Positions 1 to 55,933 of a DNA stretch of 64,000 nucleotides are shown here, piece by piece; the first letter of the stretch is position 1, and each line of letters opens with the position of its first letter. The notes under the pieces were generated by a model, which saw nothing but the letters and a program-made list of their open reading frames with translations, did no database searches and was not told the DNA's origin. The stretch covers positions 94,501-158,500 of the forward strand of contig JAHBMJ010002421.1 of NCBI GenBank assembly GCA_018398765.1, read 5' to 3'. A program made the translations under genes and the position numbers. Origin of the DNA: Chromera velia. Taxonomy: Eukaryota; Sar; Chromeraceae.

Positions 1-541
1 GTGAAATCAGAAAAGGAGACGGAGAGCACTGGCTCACGGTCAGTCGGCTCCTTCACCTGCTGCTGCTGGAGAGGAAGCCCTTGAGCGATCCCCCCCCCCC
101 GAGGACCTCCGGGAACGGGGGTCACAGCTGTCGCGTCTTGGGAAGAGGAGGTGTTGACACAAGGGGCGGGAGAAAGAGACAAACTCGAAAAAGACGCAAC
201 GGAGGTCGCGCCTGCCGAAGTTTCTCTCCCCACCACACTGCGCCCCCCCCCACCCGTCCCCGTCGACCCCGACGCCACGGAGACGGGCATCACGGACGAA
301 GGGGCGAGGTGACGTGCGGCCCCTGAAATATTCCCGTGTGCAGTCGCGATCAGCAACTGGGCTTTCGGGATCAGGTCATAGAGGGACCGCGTCTCGTTGC
401 AGACCAGAGAGGCAACAGCGGTGATCGTCGCAGCGTGACCGTCTGCACGCACGCAGGCAGGCAGGCAGGCAGGGAGGCAGGCAGGCAGAAAAAGAGACAA
501 ACGTTATCGATGTTCATTCACATGCCATTTCGGATCTGTAC
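1..541. other. 3' flank of the CHAT receptor gene, no gene seen
   Basis: Downstream flank of the minus-strand receptor gene. Short open frames here are low-complexity and lack splice or domain support. It contains poly-C runs near 91-100 and 245-250 and an AGGC tetranucleotide run. It probably holds the 3' untranslated region, but I could not place a polyadenylation site. Confidence 0.5.
453..488. repeat. (AGGC)n tetranucleotide repeat
   Basis: A short run of AGGC units, slightly interrupted, in the 3' flank of the receptor gene. Similar tetranucleotide runs recur throughout the window. Confidence 0.8.
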
Positions 542-3500
542 TTATGGGACACGAAAAGAATTCTGCCCCCATACAAAAGGCTGACGCGACAGCTTTGCCC
601 GTATTTCGCATCTTTTGGCTCTTCCTCTCAACAACCTCTCTACGACCTCTGCAAGCATACACCAATAATGAACTGACAGACCTCCTGACCCATAGATGCT
701 AAAAGAGAGCAGGGACTTACCAAAAAAACCAAAAAAGATTTCATCCTTAATTGTGTGCACTGACTGACTGACCAATGACTCCCATCAGGGGGTGAATCGC
801 CAAGAGCCCCTCAAGCTTTGCCCTCGCGGCCGCCGCATGATGCTGCAGGGGGTGCGATCCTTGTACGCCTCCTGCCGTCTCCATCTGCTGTTGCTGCGGG
901 GTCCCTGCGGGGGCCGCTGCTGGCTTTTCTGTCTGTGCCGCTGCTCCCTTGAGCATCTCCGAAAGTCTCTGGGCCCTCTCGATGAGAGACCGGTCCTCTG
1001 GGGACTCACTGGCAGATGCCGCCGACGCGGAGGCAGCAGATGAGGATGCAGAGATCTGGACGAGACGATCGTAGTCGTCTGTGTGCAGAAAGTCTGCCAG
1101 GTGGAGGGGACGGCGGCATCTCGAGAGGAACAGACGGGCAGCGAAGAGGGGGTCCAGCTGGGCAAGTCGGCACACGTGGAGCTGCACAGAACAGAAGAAT
1201 GCACACAGAACATAAATGAAGGGAGGAAGGAATAGAGGGAACGCGTACGGAAACCTGACCAAGCAGGGAGAAACAACAACCAACGAAGAAAAACAAAACC
1301 AAACACCCCCCCCGACGGACCGACCTGTTGATGCCCCAGATCGACATGTCTCAACACCCGGGCAGCCATGAGGATGTGCAGGCCATCGACATCCCGAAGC
1401 AGATGCCCAAGAACGCGCCTCCCGTTTTCCTGCACAGACACACCCACTCAAACAGCCGCGCTTCTACATCTTTTCCTCCCGTCAATTGCCACAGACAGAC
1501 ACGGAGACGAATACCCAAACACAAACAAATACTGCGAAAGGTGTTTTTTGGGAGGTTCCTTCACAGGAAGATGGACGAGGGAGAAAACGTCGAAGGAAGA
1601 ACGCAACCAAGCAAGAAAGCAGAAAAGCATCCTCACTGCGTCACCCCTTCCTTGTCTCTTGAAAAAAGAAAAAAAGAAAAGGGAGAACATCAGAGAACAA
1701 CGATTGCAGACAAGGAAGCGAGACTCTACGCCAAGCATTCAAGAACGCAACAACCGAGTGAGTGAACTAAATTACTAAAAAATGGAGATAGACCCGACTG
1801 ACGGACTGACTGACTGACCGATGCAAGAATACGGTCCGCGGAGTCAATCACGAGAAGCCGTCTCGCACCCCGACCGCGTTCCACGAGTTCATGCACCACA
1901 GAGTCGATGTTCCGAGACCATCCCCGAAGAGAAAGTTTCGGGTCTCGACGGAGGCTTCTCATCAACAGACCAAGGAGAAGGTCGGGTTCAGAGATCCCAC
2001 ACCCGCCCTGCTGCTGGGCGTTCTCAAGGTCAAGGAACAACACACCCGCGGGGAACCAGTCACGGACTGCACAGAATCGAGAAGTGAACTGCAGCAGCGC
2101 AGACTTGCCAGACCCCCTGGGTTTGCTTCTGTCACCGTCACACACCAGTACTGCACGGCGCCCCCACTCAACTAGTTGCCTTACAAGGGAATTGACTTCC
2201 AGTTTGCGGCCGAAAGGCTCAGGGGGTGCGGGGAGACGGTGAAGCCACGGTTGCTCGAAGGGCGTCTCTGTCTTCACACGCCGCACACCCCCGACTGGTA
2301 ACAGAGGTCCGGCTGGGACGCCTGTGTTGGTCACGTCCTTTGCATTCAGCGTGACTGCAGGAGAGGGGAGACTCTCGATGCGGGGGGGGAGGGCGAAAGT
2401 GGGGCTGGAGGGGGGGCGTCTGCCAGGCGTGTTGACTGACGCTGCGGAGTGGGTCGGTGAAGGCGTTTTGTTGGAATCGGAAGAGTCGTCTTCCTCTGAG
2501 CAAGAAGGGGAGGTGTGGGACAGGGGAAGGGCGAGAGGCTGCGGCTGGACGCTTTGCTGTGTTGTGAGCAGTTCGGGGGAGGACGGCAGTGACAACAGGA
2601 GTGGTTGGTTGGTGGCAGCGGAATGGGAGTTTGGGGGTTTCTCAAAATCCTCTGAGAGGACAGAAAGAGAGAGGGAGACGTTAGAGGGTCTGCCGTCCTC
2701 CTCATCGACTTCTTCCTCTGTTGCGCTTGGGCTGCCAACAATATCCACTGCAATCAGGGGACGTCTGACGTGTGAAAGGGGGGGAGAGAGACTCTCGTCT
2801 TCTTCGATCTCCTTCTTCTTTCCGGATGAGGCTGTGAGGGGAATGCTTATCTCCCTTTCACTTTCCCTCTCCCCCGCCTTCCCGAAAACAGCGGGATGAC
2901 CGTCAGTGACACTTCTCTTCGCAGTCAAGCTTTCTGCTTCTCTTCTGCTCTGGCCAATGCAAGAGAAGATCTTGGTGGAACTTCGACCCCCCCTATGACG
3001 ATGTTGGTTGAAGACACCAACTGCCGATCCCCCTCCATGCATATGTCCGGGGCGTCTCTGACAGGAAGACGAGGAAGAAAGCGTACCTCCATAAGCGTCG
3101 AGAGACACACCTCGGAGCGACTCTCTTCTGCGGCAATTACGTTTTCCTGCCCCTCCTGCTTCTGCAACCTCACTGCCGTGGCTACTGCCAGTGGTGCACT
3201 TTGTGCTTTTCCTGCTCTCTCTTTCCCTGTCTCTTCGACTCCTGCCTCCAAACACTGCAACTGAACCGACGTGGCGACCCTCGCCTCTTCCCCTTCCTCC
3301 GGCTCTATCCCTGTCCCCGCGTTCCCCCCGAGACGACGACGTCACCCCATCCCTCTCTCCCATAGGCTTGCTCATGGCGCTTCCGGTCTCTGCCTCCTTC
3401 TGCTGCTCCTTCTCTTTGTCTTTCTGGGAGGACAGAGGAACAAGAGGAAAGAACACTGCGGAGTGATCTCCCTTTCCGGCCGGAGAGTGAGGTGAGGGGA

Positions 3501-6500
3501 GAAGCGCGTAGTTAGCAGCTTCCCTCCGCACCGCCTGCACGCAAAACAAACAGTCGCACACAAGTCAAGAGAATCAGTAGAGGAGGTGGACGTGAGCAAA
3601 GTTGGAGGCGATCCACCCAAAAGAACAAAAAGAAGGTAGCCGTGACAGCAGCAGCCGAGGGCCAGAGGCACAGAAAGAAAAAACAAAACATCAGGAGAAA
3701 AGCAGAGAACACTCCTCGCACCCATCCACCTAACCGACTCACCCTCTCTGGAGAAGCACGAAGCGAATGAACAGCCAGCTCAAACGCGTCCCCCACAGAT
3801 TTGCCACCGAACAGGCCTCCGTAGAACGCACGGGTGAACTGTGCAGAGGCCTTATCTCCAACCTTACATCGAGTACAGACAACATGTCTCACCCCCACTT
3901 CCACAAGTGCATCTCCCAACTCAACAGAATCACAAGAATTCAGAAAAGCAAACTGCACGTGGGCACCAAATTTCGCAATCAAAGCCTTCAAATCTGAAAC
4001 CGCCATCCGCTGTCCGTTGCCAAACCCATCTTCTAAAATCAGTGCGTCTCTTTCACCATGAGCAGCCAAATGGAGCAATCGAGACCTCTCGGGGTGTTGC
4101 CCGAAGAGGGCGATCAATTCCTTCTCGGTTGCGACTCTGTATTCAACTGCAACCCCCTTGCCCCTCTGAGCTGCAGCCTCCCGCAGGCATGCATACTCTC
4201 TCTGAGTGTCTAAAGTTTCCAGAGGGTAAAACTGATCGTTCACACCTACAGAGGCCCCCCTATGAGGGTGGGCCCCGGCAGATGCTTCACACGATAGGGG
4301 GGAAGACCAAAGGAATTGGACAGTCGGTACAGGCTGACGGGATCCTCTACCGCTTCCTCTTCGTCCCTCTTTGCGAGAGCTGGAAGGAACGCAAGGAGCT
4401 GAGGTAGCTTCAGACGGCAGAGGCGGCTTCGCGGGAGCTGCCACCACCCCGTCATCTGCTTGCACCTCTGCCTTGAAAGGAGGAGGAACGGCGGAACCCA
4501 CCTTCTCTTCCTCAACGAGAGCGGAGGGCCGGAGCCCCATCTCAATGGATGAAGGGGGTCTCAGGGGGGAAACGGTCAAGTTCAGAGCTCCTGCGGCATT
4601 CGGCAATTCGTGTGCGTCCGGATGCTCTCTTCTTGACGACGATGTTGAAGGTGCTCCACCCCCGCAGACGGAGGATAGGTGGTAGAGATTGGACAGTGGA
4701 TTGCTAAAACGACGAGCGGAAGATGCAGAAGGATTGTGGCACGACACATGCCGATTGCCGTCCCAATCTGATCCCATAGGTCCTCCCGCTTCCTGTTCGT
4801 GAATGTCATACAACTCTCTGTTCAACGCTTCTCTTGACCTATCGGGCGTTGCGAGCCCATGGCCGTCAAGTCCCCTTCCTTTATTTCTGATCAAAAAGGG
4901 CCACCTACTTCTCACCAACTTGGCGCTCGTCCCCACTAACTTGGCGAAAACGGCCAAAAGAGCGGTTGAGCACTGGCTCCAAACGATCACCACAAGGCAG
5001 AACAACATGAGAGCAAGACATGTTGTCTCCAAGATCGGACGGGAGACAGGGATCAGCCAGGTCTCCTCAGCCGGACCTCCCATCTGACCCCCTTCCAACG
5101 CCGGCAGTCGGTGGGTGAGACCACCGGACGGATAGGGATCTGGAGTAATTGGGACCATCTGGTGTTTAACGGAGGACGACGAAGAAGAAGAAGTCACATT
5201 GTTTGCATCTGACTTCACAACCAAGCTCAAGGACGAGAGGTCCTCTTCCGAGGCATCAGAGGCCAAAACCTCAACCCCAGATTCGGCCTCTTCAAGAGGC
5301 CCCAGAGCCTCTTTACGTGAAAAGTAAATCGCACTCCCAATATCGTCAGTGTCGGGTCTGTTCAATTCCAACCCCACAACTTGTTCTTTTCCCTTGGCCT
5401 CTCTCTTCAACAACATGTACTTAGGTGAAGGAACAGCGTTGGGCTTTGCAAGAACTCCACCAGCGCCCTCTGCAAACTCCCCCCCCTGTACCGCCGCTCC
5501 TGCACTCTCAAGACGTCTCGCGTCTATCGTTGGAGCCTCGTGCGGTTCTGCGAAAACCTTCAGTTCGGAAAGCGTGATGCGGTCGGTGTCAGAGCCTGCC
5601 TCAAGTCGAACATACCGACCGACACCGTTCACGGTGACCTCGTGCATTCGTCCGTTCTGCAACAAAGGAGAGCGACATACAGGCAGAGAGGGATCTTCAT
5701 TCGAAAAACTCATTCAAATGCTGACAATCCCACCCAGTCTCGCCAATTGAGGAAACGAAAAAAAGCTAAAGCAACTCCTTCTTCATACGCCCCAGATGAA
5801 AAGGATCGCGGCTTCAGACGACTGCAGACAAAAAACAGACGAAAAGCATCGCCACTTCAGACGACTGGAGACCTTTCCCGCCCCTTGACTGACATGAGGT
5901 TCGACCACGTGCACTCTAGGGACTTGAGACTTGACAAGTTCCTGGTGCGTCTGGAAGTTCAGCGGTTCTGGCGAATGGAACAGATTGATGTCCACGTTCT
6001 TCCCCAAAGTTTCCATCTCAGGAAAGTAGAGGGCCACACGGTCGATATGGAAAAGACCTTCCAAGTCAAGAGCCACCCAGGAGGCATCTCTTTGCTTGAA
6101 GTAAGCAATGCTCTCTCTATGGGCTCTCAGTTCAATCTTATCGGATGTGTCCCCATTGTTCAGTTTCAGACAGGAACTCTGACGTGCTGAGTCTGAGTAA
6201 CAGGGTCTGTTCTCTGCAATGTTCACTAGAGCTGCAGGAGAAGAAAGCAGAAGCGAGAGGATTACGAAAAAGCGGATAAAGGCAGACACCACCCCATGCA
6301 CAAGCGCAAGAGGAAAGGAAGTTACGTTTCCGCACAGGTAGAAAGCTCCAACAATCTTGAGCGAAGCGAGATCAGAACAGCAGATCAGAGCGGCAGAAGG
6401 GCGACGGAGAGAGGAGGCAAAGAGAAAGCGGTTCAGAGAAGCAATCGAAAAGCTCATGAAGGAAGGAGAAAGGGAGACGGTCACGCAAACTTACAGAGAT

Positions 6501-6633
6501 CGGTCTCTCGGTTCACGACTGCAAGATTGTCCGCACTGCTGGTAGCCAGGCTGAAGACTGCCAACAGTAGGAGAGAATACACTGAAAAGCGAAGGACCAC
6601 AGGCCCAACGACGTAAAGGAGAGAACCAAGCAT
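542..6633 (-). CDS. Discoidin-TM-CHAT protease-STAND NTPase receptor, 7 exons
   Basis: Predicted type I membrane receptor of about 1575 residues. Exons (minus): 6633-6495, 6231-5894, 5656-3743, 3534-1819, 1429-1325, 1181-773, 648-542; phases join and the sum is 4728 nt. Residues 1-35 are a hydrophobic signal peptide. About 45-196 form an F5/8C (fucolectin-like) domain, ending GRYVRL and LSELKVF, split by two introns. One membrane span lies near 365-396. A CHAT domain (about 635-797) has LHLAAHGE (His692) and FLNSCDS (Cys734), the expected dyad. A Ser/Arg/Pro-rich linker of about 440 residues follows. The NTPase has KPRGSGKS (1268-1275), LLVIDSAD (1357-1364), a sensor-like MAAR and an ARC-like start. 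No C-terminal LRR, TPR or WD repeats were found. CHAT enzymes are cysteine proteases and STAND modules are ATP-driven switches; an immune or cell-death receptor role is inference. Terminal exon and exon 2 donor (5893, or 5872) are the least certain. An in-frame Met at 6687 is an alternative start. Confidence 0.82.
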
Positions 6634-25439: not shown

Positions 25440-28400
25440 CTTTCTCCAAAATTAGAACGACCTCATAGAAAGTTAACACGCACCCCCATCCATTCAGCAC
25501 AAGGTCCAAAATCAGAACAACCTCATGCAAAGTCAACACCCGCCTGCAGTCACTCAGTAGAGGGTCCAAAATCAGAACGACCTCATGGAAAGTCATTACG
25601 TGCCCCCATCCACTCAGTAGAGGGTCCAAAATCAGAACGACCTCATGGGAAGTCAACACGCACCCCCATCCATTCAGCAGAGGGTCTAAAATCAGAACGA
25701 CCTTATGGGAAGCCAACACCCTCCTGCAGTCACTCAGCACGTGGTTTAAAATTAGAACGACCTCATGCAAAGTCAACACGCACCCCCATTCATTTAGCAA
25801 AGCTTCCAAAATCAGAACAGCCTTATGGGAAGTCAACACGCACCCCTATCCATTCAGCATAGGGTCCAAAATCAGAACGACCTTATGGGAAGTCACCACG
25901 CGCCCCATCTACTCACCAGAGGGTCCAAAATTAGAACGACCTCATGCGAAGTCAACACGCGCCCCCATCCATTCAGCATAAGGTCGAAAATCACAACGAC
26001 CTTATGGGAAGCCAACACCCTCCTGCAGTCACTCAGCACAGGGTCCAAAATCAGAACGACTTCATGCAAAGTCAACATGCGCCCCCATCCATTCAACACA
26101 GGGTCCAAAATCACAACGACCTCATGAGAAATTAACACCCATCTACTCAGCACAGGGTCCAAAATCAGAACGACCTCAAGGAAAGTCAACACGCACCCCC
26201 ATCAAATCAGCACAGGGTCCAAAATCAGAACGATCTCATGGGAAATCCACACGCGCCCCCATCCATTCAGCAGAGGGTCCAAAATCAGTACAACCTCAAG
26301 GGAAGTCAACACGCGCCCCCATCCATTCAGCATAGGGTCCAAAATCAGAACGACCTCATACAAAGTCAATACGCACCTGCAGTCACTCACTGACAGCACA
26401 GGGTCTAAAATCAGAACGACCCCATGGGAAGTTAACACGCACCCCCATCCACTCAGCACAGGGTCCAAAATCAGACCGACCTCATGGGAAGTCAACACGC
26501 GCCCCCATCTATTCAGCACAGGGTCCAAAATCACAACGACCTCAAAAAAGTTAACATGCGCCCCCATTCACTCAGCAAAGGATCCAAAATCACAACAACC
26601 TGATGGGAAGTCAATATGCACCCCTATCCACTTACCACAGGGTCCCAAATCAGAATGATATCATGGGAAGTCAACACGCGCCCCCATCCACTCAGCACAG
26701 GGTCCAAAATTAGAATGGCCTCATGGAAAGTCAACGCGCACCCCCATCTACTCACCACAGGGTCCAAAATCAGAACGACCTCGTGTAAAGTCAACACGCG
26801 CCCGCATCCATTTAGCACAGGGTCCAAAATCAGAATGACCTCATGCAAAGTCAACACACACACCCATCCACTCAGCATAAGGTCCAAAATCAGAACGACC
26901 TCATGGGAACTTCAAGTTAAGACGTACCCCCATTCATTTAGCAAAGCTTTTAAAATCAGAACAACCTCATGCAAAGTCAACACGCACCCTCATCCACTCA
27001 GCACAGGGTTCAAAATCAGAACCACCTCATGCAAAGTTAATACGCACACCCATCCACTCAGCACAGGGTCCAAAATCAGAACGACCTCATGGGAAGTCAA
27101 CATGCACCCCCATCCACTCACCACAGGGTCCAAAATCAGAACGACCTCGTGTAAAGTCAACACGTGCCCCCATCCATTTAGCAGAGGGTCCAAAATCAGA
27201 ACGACCTCATGCAAAGTTAACACACACCCCCATCCACTCAGTACAGGGTCCAAAATCAGAACGACCTCATGCAAAGTCAACACGTGCTCCCATCCACTCA
27301 ACACAGGGTCCAAAATCACAACGACCTCAAGGGAAGTCAACACGCACCCCCATCAAATCAGCACAGGGTCCAAAATTACAACGACCTCATGGGAAATCAA
27401 TATGCACCCCTTTCCACTCAGCAGACGGTCCAAAATCAGAACGACCTCATGGAAAGTCAACACGCACCCCCATCTACTCAGCACAGGGTCCAAAATCAGA
27501 ACAGCTTCATGGGAAGTCAACGCGCACCCCCATCCACTTAGCACAAAGTCTAAAATCAGAACGACCTCATGGGAAGTTAACTTCAAGTCAACATGCACCC
27601 CCATTTATTCAGCAAAGCTTCGAAAATCAGAACGACGTCAAGGGAAGTCAACATATGTCCCCATCCACTCAGCATAGGGTCTAAAATCAGAACGACCTCA
27701 TGCAAAGTCAACACGCACCTGCAATCACTCAGCACAGGGTCCAAAATCAGAACGACCTCATGGGAAGTCAACACGCACCCCCATTCACTCAGCACAGGGT
27801 CCAAAATCAGAGCGACCTCATGTAAAGTCAACATGCGCCCCCATCAATTCAGTACAGGGTCCAAAATCAGAACAACCTCATGCAAAATTAACATGTGTTC
27901 CCATCCACTCAGCAGAGGGTCCAAAATTACAACGACCTCATGGGAAATCAACATGCACCCCTTTTCACTCAGCAGATGGTCCAAAATCAGAACGACCTCA
28001 TAAGAAGTCAACATGCACCCCCATCCACTCAGCACAGGGTCCAAAATCAGAACGACCTCATGGGAAGTCAACGTGCACCCCCATCCACTCAGCACAGGGT
28101 CCAAAATCAGAATGACTTCATGGAAACTTCAAGTCAACACGCACCCCCACTCATTCCGCAAAGCTTCCAAAATCAGAACGATCTTATACAAAGTTAACAC
28201 ACACCCCCATCCACTCAGCACATTGTCAGGGTTCAAAATCAGAACCACCTCACACAAAGTCAATACGCATACCCATCTACTCAACACAAGGTCTAAAATC
28301 AGAACGACCCCATGGGAAGTCAACACACACCCCCATCCACTCAGCACAGGGTCCAAAATCAGAGCGACCTTATGGGAAGTCAACACGCGCCCCCATCCAT

Positions 28401-30342
28401 TCAGCACAGGGTCTAAAATCACAACGACCTCAAGAAAGTTAACATGCGCCCCCATCTACTCAGCAAAGGGTCCAAAATCACAACAACCTCATAGGAAGTC
28501 AATATGCACCCCTATCTACTTACCACAGGGTCCCAAATCAGAACGATATCATGGGAAGTCAACACGCGCCCCCATCCACTCAGCACAGGGTCCAAAATTA
28601 GAATGGCCTCATGGGAAGTCAACGCGCACCCCCATCCACTCAGCATAAGGTCCAAAATCAGAACGACCTCATGGGAACTTCAAGTTAAGACGTACCCCCA
28701 TTCATTCAGCAAAGCTTCCAAAATTAGAACAACCTCATGCAAAGTCAACACGCGCCCCCATCCACTCAGCACAGGGTCCAAAATCAGAACCACCTCATGC
28801 AAAGTTAATACGCACACCCATCCATTCAGCACAGGGTCCAAAATCACAACGACCTCATGGGAAGTCAACACGTACCCCCATCCACTCACCACAGGGTCCA
28901 AAATCAGAACGACCTCGTGTAAAGTCAACACGCACCCCCATCCATTTAGCAGAGGGTCCAAAATCAGAACGACCTCATGCAAAGTCAACACACACCCCCA
29001 TCCATTTAGCAGAGGATCCAAAATCAGAACGACCTCATGCAAAGTTAACACACACCCCCATCCACTCAGCACAGGGTCCAAAATCAGAACGACCTCATGC
29101 AAAGTCAACACGTGCCCCCATCCACTCAGCACAGGGTCCAAAATCACAACGACCTCATAGGAAATTAATACCTATCCCCATCCACTCAGCACAGGGTCCA
29201 AAATCAGACCGACCTCAAGGGAAGTCAACACGCACCCCCATCAAATCAGCACAGGGTCCAAAATCACAACGACCTCATGGGAAATCAATATGCACCCTTT
29301 TTCACTCAGCAGACGGTCCAAAATCAGAACGACCTCATGGAAAGTCAACACGCACCCCCATTCACTTAGCACAGGGTCCAAAATCAGAACAGCCTCATGG
29401 GAAGTCAACGCGCACCCCCATCCACTCAGCATAAGGTCCAAAATCAGAACGACTTCATGGGAACTTCAAGTCAACACGCACCCCCACTCATTCAGCAAAG
29501 CTTCCAAAATCAGAACGACCTCATGCAAAGACTTAGTCAACACGCACCCCCATCCACTCAGCACAGGGTTCAAAATCAGAACCACCTCATACAAAGTCAA
29601 CATGCACACCCATCCATTCAGCACAGAGTCTAAAATCAGAACGACCTCATGGAAAGTCAACACGCACCCCCATCCACTCACCACAGGGTCCAAAATCAGA
29701 ACGACCTCGTGCAAAGTCAACACGCACCCCCATCCATTTAGCAGAGGGTTCAAAATCAGAACGACCTCATGCAAAGTCAACACGCACCCCCATCTACTCA
29801 GTACAGGGTCCAAAATCAGAACGACCTCATGCAAAGTCAATACGCGCCCCCATCCATTCAGCACAGGGTCCAAAATCACAACGACCTCATGGGAAATTAA
29901 CACCTACCTCCATCCACTCAGCACAGGGTTTAAAATCAGAACGACCTCAAGGGAAGTCAACACACATCTCCATCAAATCAGCAGAGGGTCTAAAATCAGA
30001 ACGATCTCATGGGAAATCCACACGCGCCCCCATCCATTCAGCACAGGGTCCAAAATCAGAACGACCTCAGGGGAAGTCAACATACGCCCCCATTCACTTA
30101 GCACAGGGTCTAAAATCAGAACGACCTCATGCAAAGTCAACACGTACCTGCAGTCACTCAGCACAGGGTCCAAAATCAGAACAACCTCATGGAAAGTCAA
30201 CACGCACCCCCATCTACTCAGCACAGGGTCCAAAATCAGAGCGACCTCATGCAAAGTCAACACGCGCCCCCATCCCTTCAGCACAGGGTCCAAAATCATA
30301 ACGACTTCATGCAAAATTAACATGTGCCCCCATCTACTCAGC
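25440..30342. repeat. 60-bp minisatellite array, main block (about 82 units)
   Basis: Tandem units of about 60 bp with core GGGTCCAAAATCAGAACGAC, then a variable CTCATGGGAAGTCAACACG part and a CACCCCCATCCACTCAGCA part. Units run continuously head-to-tail without spacers. Subtypes recur: one with AAAGCTTCC in place of AGGGTCC, and one with CCTGCAGTCACTCAG. Because 60 is divisible by three, several frames stay open for hundreds of bases on both strands. I regard these as by-products, not genes. The left edge is within a few bases. Confidence 0.95.
30335..30342. repeat. Left 8-bp target duplication of the MITE
   Basis: TACTCAGC, part of a minisatellite unit, is repeated exactly at 30948-30955 on the far side of the inserted element. 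Confidence 0.85.
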
Positions 30343-30947
30343 CTAGGGGGGGGCACTTTAGCCAGTTACACCATGGTTAGTGACCCTACACCCCCCCCCT
30401 ACAACATATGACATGTAACCATCAGTCAAAAATAGTGCTAAATTGAATCGATTAGTTACGTTTAGTTACTTGCAAAACTGGCTTCAAGATTGTTAAAAAA
30501 TTTAGGTTATGGTCAAAAATGATGAAAAATGATGTGTCACACTCATTTTGCCCCTGAACCCCCCGTAACCGGGTAACCCGTAACCTTTTTTTACCCCCCT
30601 CAAAAATGAAGTAACCTCCCTTAAGAAGCATTTAAATATGTTCTAAACATCATTTTAAATGTTTTTAAAAGTTGAAAATTTGGTTGGTTACTGAGGTAAA
30701 AATCGGTCAAAATGCTCATAACCGGGTAACCTGTAACCTCTTTATATGACAAAGATAAAAAGGTGGTAACATGCGGTAACCCAAAGTAACCAGGTAGCCT
30801 ATACTTCAAAAACATCAGATTTTGGTGTAACTAGACCAGGCGGAGCTCCAGGTTGCCGGACTGGCTCGCAAAATTCTGTTTTTATTCATATTTTATGTTA
30901 TTTTGGGCTTAAAATCTACCATAACCTTCCAGAGTGCCCCCCCCTAG
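30343..30947. mobile_element. 605-bp non-autonomous hAT-like MITE
   Basis: The element starts CTAGGGGGGGGCACTTT and ends AGAGTGCCCCCCCCTAG, giving terminal inverted repeats of about 17 bp with one mismatch. It is flanked by a perfect 8-bp direct repeat, TACTCAGC, made from a minisatellite unit. An 8-bp duplication with CTAGGGG/TAGGGG-like ends is typical of the hAT superfamily. There is no transposase frame. The interior holds many copies of GTAACC / GGTAAC in both orientations, possibly subterminal transposase-binding motifs. The well-kept ends suggest a fairly recent insertion. Confidence 0.8.
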
Positions 30948-47247: not shown

Positions 47248-50200
47248 TTACTTTCCTTCGTCTCGACTTTTTCCTGCTTTCCTTCTCTTCCGTTGGTTGA
47301 GTGCTGTTGCTTCAAATTCTGCGATAAGTTGAGGGCAGTCAAGATAAGCTTCTTTCGTCCACTCTGGCTCATCGTATCCGACATAACGAATCAGGTATTC
47401 CGTGATTCCTTTCCGCTCGCGCTTCCCGATAACTTCCTCTACTTCGAAGTCTTCCATCTCTTTGTCCTCTTCTTCGTCTTCTGGTCTCTCTTCTGAAAGA
47501 TCGATGTCCTGTTTTTCTTCATCGTCAACCTTTGGGGCGTATTTCTGAATGATGAAATCTGTTTCTTCAATGCTTCTGCTGAGAAAAGGCTTGATTCTGC
47601 TCCTGTTGACTTTCTGCAGTGTCTGACATCCAGGGCGCTTCACCACCACTGTTCGATTCGGTCGAAGGTCAGTGATGAAGAAAGGTCCTTCCCAAGCGGG
47701 TGCCAAAGCCTTGTTGACTCCCCTCGTTCGAGCTTCCTTCGAGACCCAGACGTAATCACCTCTCCTGTACTTGATGGGATTAGTTGTCTCCTGCACTCTT
47801 CTCCTCATTCTCTGTTCTGCGGCCTGTTCAAATAGTGCAGATCTGTCTGCATCCTCTCTTCTGAAGTGCGCGAGCAATTTAACATAGTCTTTTGGAATGA
47901 TGGGATCGCAGGTTTCTGGTTCAAGAGAAGCAAGGAAGCGAAGAGGATGGTTTGGCTCACGCCCATATACAAGACGAAAGGGAGACAAACCTAGAGAAGA
48001 ATGCGTGGTTGTGTTTATGACAAATTCTGCAAAACAAACATAAAGGTTCCAATCGCGCTGATTGGCATGAATGTAGGCAGAAAGAATACGTTTGAGATCT
48101 CGATGCATCCTTTCAATCCTGCCATTTGCCTTTGGATTGTATGCTGTCGTGCAGACTCGCTGGGTTCCAAGGAGGTCATGAATTGCTTGAACGGTTGGTT
48201 CCAAAAAAGACGAGCCTAAGTCACTTATCAGTTTGACTGGTCTTCCCCATTTGCAGATGACTGATTCTATCAAGACTCGTCCGATGGTCTGCGCTTTTTG
48301 ATTTTTGAGTGGAATCAACTGCGTGTATCTTGTCTTCATACACATGATGGATAAGATGTATCTGTATCCATCCTGGCTGAGGGGGAGGGGTCCCACAACA
48401 TCAATCACAAAGCATGTCAGTGGCTCTGCATCTTGAAAACTCTGCACAACGAAGTCTTCTTTCCGAATTCGTGCTTTCTTCTCCTGACACTTCCTGCAGG
48501 TGCGCACGTGTTGACAGAGATCTTCGGTCAGTGACGGCCACCAAAATCGGTCAGACACAGTTTGTATGAATTTCTTCATTCCTGTGTGACCTGCCAAGAC
48601 GTGTTCATGTGAGTCAGTCATGACCTGAAATCGCATTTCTTTGGGGGTTGCGAGGAGAAATCTGGTGCCTTTCATGTGTCTGTTTGCTGGGGGAAGGAGG
48701 CGTAGAAGGATGCCGTCGTGAAGTGTAAAGAGAGGTGCCTGTGCAAGGGTTTCTGCTCGTTCTTTCTGTGTGGTGTCCGCGTCAAACTCGCCAGTCTTCA
48801 GATACTCGATCATGAGCTTCAATTGAGGGTCTCGTTCCTGTGCTTTTCGGATGTTTTTGGGGTCGTAGGGATTGCAAAAGAATTCTGCTGGGGGTGCGGC
48901 TGTTTCCTTCTCATGTCCGTTCCCTATTTTTCTCGTGACTCCAACCGAGGATGTAGATAGTCTGATTTGACTGTATTTTTCCTTGTTTGCAATGGATGCG
49001 ACAACAACTTCTTCGTCATCAGCGTCGAGATCCGAAGAGCTCGTTGCTGGGGCTCCTGGTGGATGCCGGTCAGTCACAAAGGGTGGGCGAGTGAGAGAGT
49101 CAACATCCTGGTGTTTTGAGCCCGGAACATAATGGACATCGTAGTTGAAGGCAGCAAGTCGAAGGCTCTATCTGTAGAGTCTCGGGTTTGAGTTTCGTTG
49201 TTCTTTCAAGTAGACTAGCGCCTTGTGATCTGTAAGTACAGTGAATTCTCTCCCGTATAAGAAAGGGCGGAAATGTTCAATCGTAGCAAGGATCGCTAAG
49301 CATTCCTTCTCAGTAATGCACCACTTTCTTTCCGCGTCAGTCAATCGCCTGCTGAAGTATGCAATCACTCAGTTTTCATTGTTATCGTCCCGTTGCAGAA
49401 GGATCCCTCCTAGAGCAGACTCACTGGCGTCAGTCTTGATGATGAATGGTCGGTCGAAATTCGGGTGTGCCAAGACAGGTTCGGACGACAGCATCTCTTT
49501 CATTCTCTGAAAGGCAATTCGTTGTGGTTCTTCCCAGATCCATGGAGTGTCCTTTTTGAGCAAATCGAGAAGTGGTCCTGCTTTAGTAGAAAATTGATGA
49601 AGAAATTTTCTGTAGTAAGAGCAGGCCCCGAGTAGTCTTTTCAGCTCTTTCTTGTTTTTGGGTGGTTCCGCCTCTGTGATACTCTTCACCTTTTCTTCTG
49701 ACGGCCTAATTCCATCTGGTGAGATTTTATGCGATAGGTAAATCAATTCTCTCTTTCCCCAACTGCACTTCGCGAATTGAATGCGTACCCCAAACTTTTT
49801 GAGTCTCTGCAGAACCGTCTCTACTTCCGTCAAGTGCTCCGACCACGTAGACGAACTAATGATCACATCGTCGAGGTAAGTGCTAATGGAAATGCCATTC
49901 AACCCACTCAGCATCACGTCCATTGCCCTCTGGAAGATTGCCGGGCTGTTTGTATAACCTTGCAGCATCTTGCGGTATCGGTACTGGCCCGAATCAACGT
50001 GAACGAAGCTGAGCTGATTTCGGTCGCATTCTCGTACAGAGATCTGGAAAAACCCGGAAGCTAAATCAAGACTTGTATGAATGCATTTCCCTTGAAACCT
50101 TCGAAGAAGTTCATCGATGCGAGGAAGGGGGTAGTGGTCTCTTTTGACAGTCTCGTTTAGTTTCCTCAGGTCTGTGCAAATCCTTAACTTCCCGTTCTTT

Positions 50201-53200
50201 TTCCTTACTATCACGAGGGGTGCTCCCCATGGAGAAGCACATGGCTCAATTATCCCTACCTGCAGGAGGTCGTGGATAGCCTCGTTCACTTCAGAGACTT
50301 TCTTGAGTGCGTGCGGGATGGGTCGAGGTCGAATGAAGATCGGTTCCGCTCCTTGCGTATCTACAGTGGCTTCGACTCCTTTGAAGGTTCCTGGGTCAGT
50401 TTTGGTGGGAAAAAGAGACACGTATTTGAGCAGCAGGTTCCGCAGTTCGTCTTGTTGCTTTGCATCGAGATGGCTGCTCTCCCTTATTGTGGTCTCGATT
50501 TCATCCTTGGCTTTGATTTCAGCCTCTAATTGCTCGGTTTGGCTGCTCGTGTAGCATGCTTCTCCGTCTACCCCGTCAAGACTTCCTTCTACTGCTGGGT
50601 CCATTTCTGTCTCGGATCTCTCTTGCAGAATAGATGAAATCACCACTGAGGCTTGGTTCTCCCTCCCTTCCGCTTGAGTGCAGAGAGAGACAGTTGCCAC
50701 AGGTAGGTCACGATTGACTTTGCAGACCCGAGATGTCAGGTTGTCAAAGAAGAGAGAGACTGTCTGGTCAGAAATTTCACATACAGAATTTCCCACCATA
50801 ATTCCTGCTGGTAAAGAGTCTCTGAATGGTTCTATGAGGACCGTAGACCCATTTGGGAATGCCGAATTTGGAGGGAGAGGCAGAAACAATTTTGTGCGTT
50901 CTCTTGGGGGTAACAGGGAAGCTGAGGCTGTAAGAAGTCGAATCGGCAATATTCTCCTCAGTTTTTCTAGTTCTGTCATTGAGGTCAACTCGATCTGTGG
51001 AGGTACTTTCTGTCTGCTGAACTGAGGTTTCATGTGCAGAATGTCTGGCTGAAATGACAGATAGGTAGTGTGAAGTTTCAAAAAGTCAGCTCCCAGAATA
51101 ACTTCATGCTGAAGCTTTTCTGCTATATAAAACTATTGTTTCCTTTTTCCGCCTATTTCGATTTGCAGATTGACCGTCCCTTCCTGATGGACCTGGCCTC
51201 CTTCACCTTGTATCTCAACTGGGGATTTGGCGGCCTTCAGGTGGGGATTTTCCCTTTGTATTACCTCCTAAACTTTCCGATCAGCAAGACTTAAATCGCT
51301 TCCCGTATCAACCAAGGCAGCAGCGGCTATATTTTTTTCCAACTTGATCAGTACCCCAACCCTCTCGTTCTTTGGTTGAAGTTTTACGTGGGAAATTTTT
51401 ACGGATTTGAACCTTTTGATAGGTCCATTGTTTTCTTCTCTTCCTCGTTTCAGCCCATCACTCATGGGAAGGTCTGCCGTGGCTGCCTCAAGAGAACTCA
51501 GTTTCTGCGGGGTCCGTAGGAGAGGCGTTCCCTGATCCTGTCTGCCTATCTGATTTGGTCGATCAGGTGGTGGTCGGGGCCCTATTGGTAATTGATTTGA
51601 TCCTGTCGCGGGGTTCCATCTTGGTCGTTCATGTCCATTTGTTCGGAATCCTGCAGGTTGTATCCATCCTGACTGCGGGGAGCTTCGCCAAGGTCTGGGC
51701 TGACTTATGTTCTGTCGAGGATCCCCGGAGCCATGCGGATAGGGTCTCCGAGAAGTATCTTCCCATTCTCGTTTCTGCTGATCCCTTCCCGGTCCTGTAG
51801 AGGTGGGTGGTCTGATTCTAGAATTCTGGATGAGGTTTGGGTTGGCTGCACCGTTTATTCTGTCTCGTTTCAACCTGCGACACGCTGCCTTGATATGACC
51901 CTTCGTTTTACAATAAAAACATTCGACAGAAGGAGGAAGAGTACACCCATTCTGATCGTGAGGCATTGTGCCTGCGCACTTTTGGCATGTCGATTGTTGG
52001 GCTAAAACGCTGGTCACGTTATTCATAGCAGAGAGCTGTAGTTCCTCTTTAGGTATGGTATACCCACACTCAATCGTTTTGACGCCCAAGCCTGTTTCCA
52101 AGTCTGTTTCATTTTCAGCAAATCTGTCGAATTTCCGTTTGTTTTGTTCTCTTCCGCGCTCTTCTTCTTGTTCAGGAGAGCTTACTGCTGCAAGGCTGGC
52201 AGAAGGGAGACCAGGTTCGTAGGCAGCGAGTTTGATTGCCGCTTGCAGTAACGATCGAAATGATGCATAATTTTCCTTTTCCGAGTTCAATTTGAACTTC
52301 ACCTGTGGGTATCGATCTGACAGTCCTTTGATGAATACTTTGAGAACAGACGGCTTGTCAATTTTCTTCCCTCCTTCTCTGCAGAGTTTCCGGAATCTTG
52401 CTCCATAGTCCTGAAGGCGTTCATCTCGGCGTTGACGGATGGAATAGAGAAGTTCTTTAGCGGTCTCTTGATCCGTTTCGGTGAGCCCAAACTCCTGTAG
52501 GAAAAGCTTGCAAAGAGCATCTGTGCTGTCAACTAAAAGAATCTCCACTGAAGGGAGTTGTGCGAACGAATCCTTGGCTTCTCCTTGTAGTGTGGAAGGA
52601 CAGTACATGTCTCTGAAGTCGGTAAATGACCATCCTAAGCGATCCTTGAATCGTAGCAAATTATCCCAAAACTGTTGTGCTTGCGTCCGTTCTCCTGTGA
52701 AGGAAAGCAGCTCCATTTTGACTTTTGGCATAGGCGTTGGTTGGGCTGGGAAGACACCTGACTTCCGAGAATCATTATCTTGATTGCTCCCCTTTCCTTC
52801 TTCGATTGCCTTTCCTGCAGGGTGAGGGTGGTTCCCCTGTCGGTCGTGTGACTCTACTTGTTCAGCCTCTAGTCCATCAGAAGGAACTCCCGGAACCTGA
52901 TCAGCTTCCTATCCTTTGGCGAGGTTGATTTTTTGACGCTTTTGTGGATTGCCAATGGGTTCAACAGTTGAGTCACTTGGATAGAGGTTTTCTATCTGCG
53001 CAAGAAGAGAGGTCAGTGAATCTGATTCGCTTGCTGCTCGTATATTCTTCTGTGGAGTCTGTTGTTCCTTTAGTCTGTCGGGGGCATCCTTCGCTGCCCG
53101 TCCTTTTGTCAATACGCTGATCGTTTCTTTCTTTATTCCTTTTCCCGCTAGACTCTTGGTCTCTGCCTTCTCGGTATGAGATCGTTGAGCCCTTGCTTTT

Positions 53201-53439
53201 TTCAATTGCGAGGGATTGCTCTTTGCCATGGTCTTCTTGGCTGTTGGCTTTTGAGCTCCCTTCTTGGTCTGTTTTGTGCTTTTCTTCGTCTTTGCCTCCT
53301 CCGCAATCAGTTTGGCTTGGCTTCTGGTCGAAGTCACCATAATCGTAAACCTTCCACTTCTCCTTTTGTTCTGAATCTCCGTACGTTTCCGGTACACAGG
53401 CCCAGACAGGAAGTAAATGTAGATGGTGTTGTGAGACAC
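47248..53439 (-). mobile_element. Coding part of the chromovirus: gag to chromodomain integrase
   Basis: On the minus strand, going left: a Lys-rich N-terminal gag frame, then gag with a CCHC knuckle (CFYCKTKGHIKAAC), then protease (ALVDTGSD). Next comes RT with the catalytic YLDDV and the flanking GYTNSPAIFQRAMD, then RNase H (IKTDASESALGG, TDHKALVYL). The integrase follows, with the zinc-binding HxGxxK/CxxC part (HTGMKKF, CRKCQEKKAR) and the core FVIDVVGPLPLS ... NPKANGRIERMHRDL. The C-terminal chromodomain reads FEVEEVIGKRERKG ... YLIRYVGYDEPEWT. This order and the chromodomain define the chromovirus clade of Ty3/gypsy (Metaviridae). About three interruptions overall. Confidence 0.9.
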
Positions 53440-53653
53440 TTACTTGTACAACGGTTTCGAGGCTCAGTGCTCTAATTCTCCTATGAGAGAAGAAGGGGCT
53501 GTGAGCAAGTGCGTGAGCCCAGAACTGGTCTAATACGAATGAAGGACGCCCGTCAAGACTGAACCAGAGATTTGTTCTTTCTTCTATCTCCGTTTGCAAA
53601 TCTCCAATTTGCTTTTCAAATCTCTTCCTTACTTTCACTTCTCCTTTTCTCAC

Positions 53654-54332
53654 AACTTCCCCGATCTCTGCTATTGACTGTATCGTTGCAGATGGTTCGT
53701 CTGAAGAGTCGGGAAAACAGAGATTTGGGCAGCACTTCGTGGTAAGCTCCTTTTAAAGAATGAAAATTTCGTAAAGACACGGAGAAAAAAAAAGGAACAC
53801 AAAATTTGAAAGCAGAGACAAGAAAAATTGACAGCACTTCGTGGTATGGTCTGTCTTCTCGATCTCCGTTTTCTTCAAGTCCCCACAGAAGCGTATCTGC
53901 TTAATGACGGAATCGACGTAATTGATGCTGTGAAAGAAACGTGCCTGAGAGGGCGGCGTTGACGATACACACGATTGAGGCGGTCCAGAATCGAAGCCCT
54001 TTGAACTGTTCGCTGTGTGACTCGATTGGTCCCACAGAAATTCCAAACACTTCAGATGCCTCCTTGTCGGTACACGTTATCTGCAGGAGAGCTGCTGATG
54101 CTCTGGTCACAGACAACAGGTTAATTTTGGTTGCTTGACCTACAGTCAAGGGGGGGAGATCTACGTTGCCACGTCTCTTCCCAGGCTCACTCTTCCAGGA
54201 CCGGAGCTGGATCCACCACCTGTCCTTCTTGGCTCAGGTCGTGAAGGGAACGTTTACAAGCGCGTCTGACTCCAGGTCAGAAGGTTGGTCGCAGTTTCGT
54301 CCCTGCTCTTCTTGAGCAGTGGCGTCACCACG
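53654..54332. other. Leader between the 5' LTR and gag of the chromovirus
   Basis: About 0.7 kb of noncoding leader next to the right LTR. It contains a short direct repeat, AGCACTTCGTGGTA, near 53732 and 53834. The primer-binding-site-like motif lies at its LTR end. No other gene is supported. Confidence 0.5.
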
Positions 54333-55199
54333 TGTTACGCCTTACTGGTGGGATTCACCAGAGACGCAAGAGGGAGAAGAAGGGTTGAAGGTGCCGTGGA
54401 AAGGTTACAGGTAATTAGACGATAGAAGTGATGGTTAGCCTAGAAGAGTGAGGGAATACCCTAGAAAGATGATCGTAGCTAGTAATAAGTGAACGAAGAT
54501 GAATGAAAAGTTTCAAAAAAGTTGAAGACACAAGTTGAGTACAATGTCGATCAAGGCTCTCCACTTTTCCTCACGTTTTTTTCTTCACAAGTTGAAGCTC
54601 GATTCGATTTGGTGCGCACATTCGATTTTTGTGACAGTCGAATTCAGACCGCACTATTCGGATAAAATTCGATTATCGGTTTTGATATGCAGGCATCGAT
54701 TAATAACCGCGCATTATTCGGATCACTCATGTGCGGCGGCGCCAGTGGGTTCTGACTCTAATATCAGGCGTCGCTATGCACACAATGGGCGTCGATCGCA
54801 TGCACTGTCACTGCCCATGAATCTTTGATGTCTTATCTCGATTTTCTTGACTTTTCCTTGAGACCAAGAATTAAAGGTTATAGTCTGCTTAATCGCTTGT
54901 GATGTCATGCCGACACCTTCCCCTCAAGAGGTGTTTTTCCCGTTATCGCACACTGGGGCCGTGCGTAGGAAGGCATGCATTTAGTAAAGCACCCTAAGGT
55001 TCTTTTTTTCTTTAGGGTCATATTAAGCTAATGATTATATCCTTCCTTTTTTTTTTTTGGACTTACTTTCGTAAGTTTAAAGGAAAATCAAGATCTTGAG
55101 TTGTAGAATTAACAATTAGACCGATTCTCCTTTTTAACAAGATTTTATTTCAATTTTACTAGTTTTTTAAACTAGTTATTTAATTAATAAAACATTACA
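54333..55199 (-). repeat. 5' LTR of the chromovirus (right end)
   Basis: 867-bp partner of 37465-38335, same orientation, followed directly by ATAA. The similarity stops exactly at TTACA, which sets the element boundary. Confidence 0.92.
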
Positions 55200-55254
55200 A
55201 TAATGATATTAAATGCATTCGGTTCAGTGAATGTGTAATTAATATATTTGGATA

Positions 55255-55650
55255 CCAGTAGTAGCTCAGGAAAAGATTTAGTAATCAGACCATAATACTG
55301 TATGCTTATGTTTTTTAACGTTTTCCTTTAGCCCGTACGTCATAATTAACATACTCACAAGAGTCGGGTAACAAGACCTTAGTCACTTCTGCACGCAAAG
55401 CACGCGCCCTCACTTGTATATATATTAAAGACCAATAGTAGCTCAGGAAAAGATTTAGTAATCATGCTTATGTTTTTTAACGTTTTCCTTTAGCCCGTAC
55501 GTCATAATTAACACACTCATCCGCCTCTCATATATGGGGACGCGGCATGCATGAAAAAACCCTCAATCATTAACACACTCAGAAGAGTCGGGTAACAAGA
55601 CCTTAGTCACTTCCGCGCGCAAAGCGCGCGCACTCACTTGTATATTAATA
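55255..55650. repeat. Tandem duplication of about 175 bp
   Basis: Copy 1 (55255-55428) and copy 2 (55432-55650) share the stretches TAGCTCAGGAAAAGATTTAG, GTTTTCCTTTAGCCCGTACG, GTCGGGTAACAAGACCTTAG and CTCACTTGTATAT. Copy 2 carries about 64 bp of additional sequence. They lie between the chromovirus and the coiled-coil gene, with no coding sequence. Confidence 0.8.
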
Positions 55651-55933
55651 GGTACGTCGATCCCCACCTCATCCACGATCACGATCTCAGGTAATGCAGA
55701 CCCAGCTCCCTCGTGACGTACCTCAATCGTACACTGCCCCTGCTGATCGATCCCCTTTCAAAACCCACACGCGAAAGCCATTTGATCAACAGAAGCAGAT
55801 CGAGCACGCAGAAAGGGAGTGATGTGTCCATATATATGCTCCCGACGTGTGCGCGTGTTCACGACGCATTCACGAAAGCAGATGACCTTGAAACGGACTT
55901 AGCTTTTAATATTTCTTCCTTTGGCTGATAGCC

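Follow-up and report, generated by a model that had tools for sequence, protein, structure and literature searches.

Does a single gene of Chromera velia join a ligand-binding domain outside the cell to a caspase-like protease and a nucleotide-dependent switch inside it? C. velia is a photosynthetic, free-living, coral-associated relative of the apicomplexan parasites, and where STAND ATPases control caspase-like proteases they are usually depicted as cytosolic sensors. The question is raised by a locus at the beginning of the 64,000-nucleotide stretch analysed here (the window, contig C2406:94501-158500 of the 178-Mb C. velia assembly in which all genome searches were made), which encodes the database protein P0001 (1884 amino acids). 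Our best explanation, held with about even confidence, is that P0001 is a type I membrane receptor, with a putative ligand-binding ectodomain outside and, inside, a CHAT domain together with a STAND switch resembling CED-4/Apaf-1. What is read from the sequence is the order of these parts, an intact His-Cys dyad, a Walker B motif, a variant P-loop, conserved STAND positions, and a predicted membrane span that shares an exon with CHAT. This particular assembly of ectodomain, span, CHAT and STAND ATPase was not found elsewhere in the sequence and literature searches made.

The gene lies on the minus strand, where six exons (6633-6495 to 1181-773) join in phase across introns bounded by GT and AG. 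A protein search with the CHAT part as query returned P0001 at 100% identity across that part; it is encoded by the window itself and maps onto the identical six exons, the second of which has its donor at 5894/5893. Because the method of its prediction is not shown, we treat P0001 as a second gene model and not as transcript proof. The features of the gene are as follows.

6495..6633, minus: exon 1, start codon and signal-peptide-like stretch, residues 1 to ~35 (phase joining, hydropathy)
5894..6231, minus: exon 2, bulk of the discoidin-like ectodomain, residues 47-159 (PF22633 at E=0.0061, below the cut-off, spanning exons 2 and 3)
3743..5656, minus: exon 3, ectodomain end, stalk, membrane span, cytosolic linker and most of CHAT (638 codons without a stop)
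4979..5035, minus: predicted membrane span, residues 367-385 (hydropathy, basic C-terminal flank)
3743..4267, minus: CHAT domain, Pfam residues 623-798; by alignment the fold runs from ~585 to ~830 and ends in exon 4
4058..4060, minus: predicted catalytic His692, in LHLAAHG (dyad alignment)
3932..3934, minus: predicted catalytic Cys734, in FLNSCDS (dyad alignment)
1819..3534, minus: exon 4, CHAT end, long low-complexity linker and start of the STAND-type ATPase (phase joining, P0001 mapping)
2101..2115, minus: GSGKS, residues 1271-1275, end of the variant P-loop KPRGSGKS (alignment)
1834..1857, minus: Walker B LLVIDSAD, residues 1357-1364, which agrees with hhhhD (alignment)
1325..1429, minus: exon 5, ATPase, HILMAAR, sensor-like strand (phase joining, STAND alignment)
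773..1181, minus: exon 6, ATPase, LFAARLFLSR, and a low-complexity insert (phase joining, STAND alignment)
1..442, minus: exon 7 of the database model, continuing past the window edge, with GHAATI (440-423) at the STAND GxP place (P0001 mapping, relatives)

Hydropathy agrees with an earlier note on this DNA, made from its letters alone, which had described a signal peptide and one membrane span. The N-terminus is hydrophobic and signal-peptide-like (residues 12-30, Kyte-Doolittle (KD) value 2.14), and ~330 residues further on there is a single further hydrophobic span (residues 367-385, KD 2.44), whose C-terminal flank is basic (4 K/R and 0 D/E within 30 residues). The predicted layout of signal-peptide-like start, ectodomain, one span and cytosolic enzyme fits both the hydropathy and the flank charges. 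The fusion is believable because the end of the ectodomain, the span, its basic flank and CHAT with both dyad residues share the 638-codon open exon 3. As read from the predicted protein, the fusion of CHAT/STAND to a membrane span is secure, and the placement of CHAT and the STAND-type ATPase in one membrane chain, on the same side of that span, is supported.

The identity of the CHAT domain, also proposed by the earlier note, is secure on profile evidence: P0001 matches PF12770 with 55.4 bits (cut-off 24, E=8.5e-15), the strongest of the at least three CHAT matches in the genome, where only the best candidates were scored. The numbering given earlier for the catalytic residues, His692 and Cys734, is exact in P0001. 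The dyad is intact in 12 of 16 aligned CHAT domains, P0001 included, and both other C. velia CHAT domains also retain it in its motifs. P0003 keeps the Cys only; P0002, P0012 and P0015 have neither residue, a hint that they form a branch of pseudoproteases. In the PDB a single sequence matched below 1e-3: 8tl0, a CHAT domain-containing protein (E=9.3e-5). In a tree of the 16 domains the C. velia rows sit on long branches, so that their joins are unsafe, and for this reason we claim no origin for the C. velia CHAT.

One of the two other C. velia loci, on contig C1625, encodes P0004, which UniRef lists as a CHAT domain-containing protein from Chromera velia CCMP2878 (100% identity over the 231 residues searched). 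In its model a long linker leads from CHAT to a STAND-like ATPase, and there is no ectodomain; the 5' end of the locus is uncertain, the upstream sequence being partly N. At C1625:75291-80360, plus strand (L023), CHAT and the STAND-like ATPase lie in one 1690-codon frame with ~1000 low-complexity residues between them. The other locus, C3719 ~48919-55750, minus strand (L024), has SAM, CHAT with a NACHT-like P-loop below the cut-off, and TPRs in three neighbouring open frames, read without splicing. Outside Chromera, CHAT searches of public genomes and metagenomes found P0002, P0003 and P0005-P0015, and seven of these 13 (P0002, P0003, P0005, P0006, P0007, P0011 and P0013) were scanned with Pfam. 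CHAT is above the cut-off in six of the seven, the exception being P0003, whose CHAT appears in the precomputed list and in PADLOC. Each of the seven shows at least a weak STAND-type match, which exceeds the cut-off in four; three have LRR and three TPR, and none has a discoidin match. Like P0001, those of P0002-P0015 that were aligned carry CHAT followed by a STAND-type ATPase; unlike it, they have extra LRR, ARM or TPR domains where scanned, and by hydropathy none of the 14 has a span. P0001 is the only one of the 15 proteins to exceed KD 1.9 in a 19-residue window, the others peaking at 1.07 to 1.75; the raw C1625 frame (P0016) reaches 2.02 in one window, within a stretch mostly outside the P0004 model. 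P0002 also shows a weak Macro-domain match at its C-terminus, below the cut-off (E=0.0031). The bacterial and archaeal genomes scanned with P0006 yielded no relative.

Profile and predicted fold support a STAND-like, though variant, ATPase. We built a profile of CHAT-linked STAND domains on 12 of the 13 relatives (P0011, without the P-loop pattern, was excluded) and held out P0004 as a test. P0001 scores 24.8 bits against it (E=1.3e-5), shuffled sequences no more than 3.1, and the held-out P0004 45.3; among the relatives P0002, P0005, P0006 and P0013 exceed the nSTAND1 or NB-ARC cut-off. The predicted model of the ATPase is of the CED-4/Apaf-1 fold type. The strict NACHT profile (PF05729) stays below its gathering score of 26.7, with 13.6 bits for the whole of P0001 and 17.7 for the C-terminal piece carrying an exon at 658-542; Pfam lists only CHAT and this weak NACHT match in P0001, with no TPR, LRR, WD40 or ankyrin repeats, and NCBIfam and PADLOC gave no match. 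Of the P-loop NTPase with Walker B that the earlier note had described, LLVIDSAD and GSGKS stand, but a full Walker A does not. That note had named a failure of profiles to find CHAT or a P-loop domain as grounds against its reading; the profiles find both, although the P-loop domain lies under the Pfam cut-offs. An FxGR-type motif before the P-loop retains F, G and R without the residue between F and G (PFGRK), and at the GxP motif the glycine is present in all nine rows of the alignment and the proline in eight, P0001 being the row that lacks it (GHAATI).

The seven in-phase exons proposed earlier held for the first six, which recur in P0001, but not for the last. An exon 7 at 658-542 is in phase, but its residues are unlike those of relatives at the STAND motif, and it was dropped for the exon from 442. 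The latter runs out of the window to a stop at contig C2406:93909-93911 (window -591 to -589), its start at 442 being inferred from a split codon and a cag acceptor. When the junction residues are compared with P0005 and P0006, 988 and 496 of 1000 shuffles score as high as the 658-542 candidate, against 2 and 0 for the exon from 442; P0003, P0004, P0007 and P0013 are uninformative for either. It is the 442 exon that supplies the invariant GxP-site glycine in P0001. The STAND profile does not discriminate between the two candidates, since its match stops at residue 1456, upstream of exon 7 (29.1 bits for a shorter piece with the 658-542 tail, 24.8 for whole P0001).

What the ectodomain is can be said only tentatively: we call it discoidin-like. 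The F5/8C domain that the earlier note had seen there finds a full-length but weak counterpart. Pfam gives the 154-residue ectodomain, taken from residue 48 on, a single match, F5_F8_type_C_2 (PF22633), which covers profile positions 3-91 of 91 at E=0.0061, with 17.6 bits against a cut-off of 27.8; none of eight shuffled ectodomain sequences matches. The last part of the ectodomain, encoded in exon 3, reads GRYVRLEAGSDTDRITLSELKVFA. A single-sequence AlphaFold model of the fold has a predicted local distance difference test score (pLDDT) of 33. Searched against the genome and against proteins (461 word-sharing candidates), the ectodomain matches only itself. A discoidin domain would suit the chromerid lineage, because C. 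velia has other F5/8C domains (nine of 11 PF00754 matches exceed the cut-off) and because some types of the LAP proteins of apicomplexans and chromerids are described as carrying F58C domains (PMC11285972). On the strength of the PF22633 match, a role as glycan or lipid sensor is plausible.

Parts of this design are familiar. The discoidin domain receptors DDR1/2, like P0001, combine a discoidin ectodomain (the label being tentative for P0001), a single span and an internal enzyme; theirs is a tyrosine kinase, and they have no STAND switch. The CED-4/CED-3 and Apaf-1/caspase-9 apoptosomes pair an ATPase of the fold type modelled for P0001 with a caspase-fold protease, but as separate soluble proteins and not in one membrane chain, and CHAT does not count as a true caspase. 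As a receptor core CHAT-STAND is already known, for example from fungal CHAT-NLRs (PMC10197012), which are presented in PMC12881547 as NLR-type receptors with repeats beside gasdermin genes; P0001 differs in its signal-peptide-like start, its ectodomain, its span ahead of CHAT and its lack of Pfam repeats. CHAT proteases have been linked to gasdermins in fungi and bacteria (PMC12881547, PMC10197012). Despite these ties a search of the C. velia genome for the gasdermin family PF04598 found nothing at E 1, and we therefore assign no substrate to CHAT. HetF of Anabaena also has CHAT and one membrane span per chain; its published scheme is CHAT-TM-TPR, without a STAND ATPase, and its role is in division (PMC8406250). 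With no TPR match, P0001 does not follow that order of CHAT, span and TPR. The metacaspase-CHASE2 protein of Trichodesmium erythraeum is a membrane protein with a predicted extracellular receptor domain and, inside the cell, a caspase homologue (PMC3501461), but with a different protease family and sensor, four spans and no STAND ATPase in the order described there. NLR architectures with predicted membrane spans, putative membrane-bound NLRs, are reported from sponges (PMC12909245), in a description that mentions neither CHAT nor an ectodomain. According to PMC8195603, there are bacterial proteins in which a death-like domain is fused to a carbohydrate-binding module of the discoidin fold, and oyster proteins bound to the membrane that combine an extracellular domain with apoptotic domains inside the cell. 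Neither the whole combination nor CHAT in chromerids was found among the matches listed in searches of open-licence full texts, subscription papers being outside that scope. Of the earlier interpretation, the one-chain membrane protein with CHAT and STAND on the same side of the span survives, but "undescribed system" was too strong, because CHAT-STAND (PMC10197012), membrane CHAT (PMC8406250) and a sensor joined to a caspase homologue in one chain (PMC3501461) are all on record.

If P0001 is such a receptor, its ectodomain (discoidin-like, tentatively, with the stalk) would probably bind a ligand that is a glycan, a lipid or part of a matrix, either extracellularly or in the lumen of an endomembrane compartment. 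One helix would span the membrane; inside, the CHAT cysteine protease and the STAND ATPase would be tethered by the long low-complexity linker. Nucleotide-driven clustering is established for CED-4 and Apaf-1. Here ligand binding or clustering may shift the ATPase into an oligomer, which would bring CHAT domains together and activate them by proximity. Active CHAT might then cleave a substrate near the membrane, or the receptor's own linker, freeing CHAT-STAND; such self-cleavage within the linker at 386-580, with release from the span, is possible. The outcome would probably be regulated cell death or a defence or recognition response. In its boldest form the proposal is an outside-in apoptosome in one molecule: a surface lectin-like receptor whose ligand binding directly licenses CED-4-like ATPase clustering and so activates the caspase-like protease of the same chain, a switch from recognition to death or remodelling without adaptor or separate caspase. 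We offer this form as a speculation, and an unlikely one.

Several results weigh against the receptor reading. The ectodomain does not reach a Pfam gathering score for F5/8C, with PF22633 below its cut-off and PF00754 unlisted; PF22633 drops to E=0.29 in a longer fragment and is unlisted for the whole of P0001. Discoidin identity is unsupported by phmmer against PDB (up to E 10), by PHROGs and by NCBIfam, and also by hhalign against three C. velia F5/8C domains, drawn from four loci among the 11 PF00754 matches with L011 excluded as partial. In the ATPase the Walker A pattern GxxxxGK[ST] is broken, Lys1268 replacing the Gly of relatives and the loop being longer by five residues, with GKS retained. 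This variant P-loop lowers our confidence in the receptor, its boldest form included, and raises two of its three rivals, those in which the N-terminal region is only an anchor or an enzyme is inactive.

The first of these, to which we give a minor though real share of belief, takes P0001 for a membrane-tethered CHAT-STAND protein whose N-terminal region only targets or anchors it, the ATPase part sensing in the cytosol, or the whole having a HetF-like role in growth or division. It would account for an ectodomain for which the searches found no relative and whose domain match is below the cut-off; HetF, a single-span CHAT protein, is assigned to the divisome in PMC8406250; and the other two C. 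velia CHAT loci have no ectodomain in the parts seen (C3719 was viewed only from the SAM frame on). However, the N-terminal hydrophobic stretch is separated from the span by ~330 residues, which exceed an anchor's needs, and the repeats that might serve cytosolic sensing are absent from P0001 by Pfam. A pseudoenzyme, with either CHAT or the variant P-loop ATPase inactive and a protein that signals by assembly alone, seems to us improbable. One or both dyad residues are lost in four of the 16 aligned CHAT domains, that of P0001 is on the longest branch of the tree (3.18), and the P-loop lacks its first glycine; against this, His692 and Cys734 are kept in their motifs, as in the other two C. velia domains, and Walker B and GKS are retained. 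Least probable is that the models fuse two genes, discoidin-TM and CHAT-STAND: the gene structure comes from predicted models (P0001 and that of the earlier note), but ectodomain end, span and CHAT share one open exon, and an ATPase follows CHAT in the compared relatives also.

Elsewhere in the window, at 47251-52908 on the minus strand, lie three long open frames of 639, 587 and 546 amino acids that by eye resemble a retrotransposon polyprotein. At 26604-30408 on the plus strand, a unit of ~20 residues (GSKIRTTSWEVNTHPHPLST-like) recurs throughout long open frames, which may reflect a tandem repeat in the DNA and not a gene.

Expression of immune and apoptosis genes is reported to fall in coral larvae exposed to Chromera (PMC5864212), a response that makes surface recognition in Chromera worth study and says nothing on the P0001 gene. 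If P0001 is the receptor we propose, an NLR-like core can be connected to the cell exterior without adaptors, in a free-living relative of the apicomplexans, and this one gene would be a test case for a coupling of surface recognition to caspase-like proteolysis in algae.
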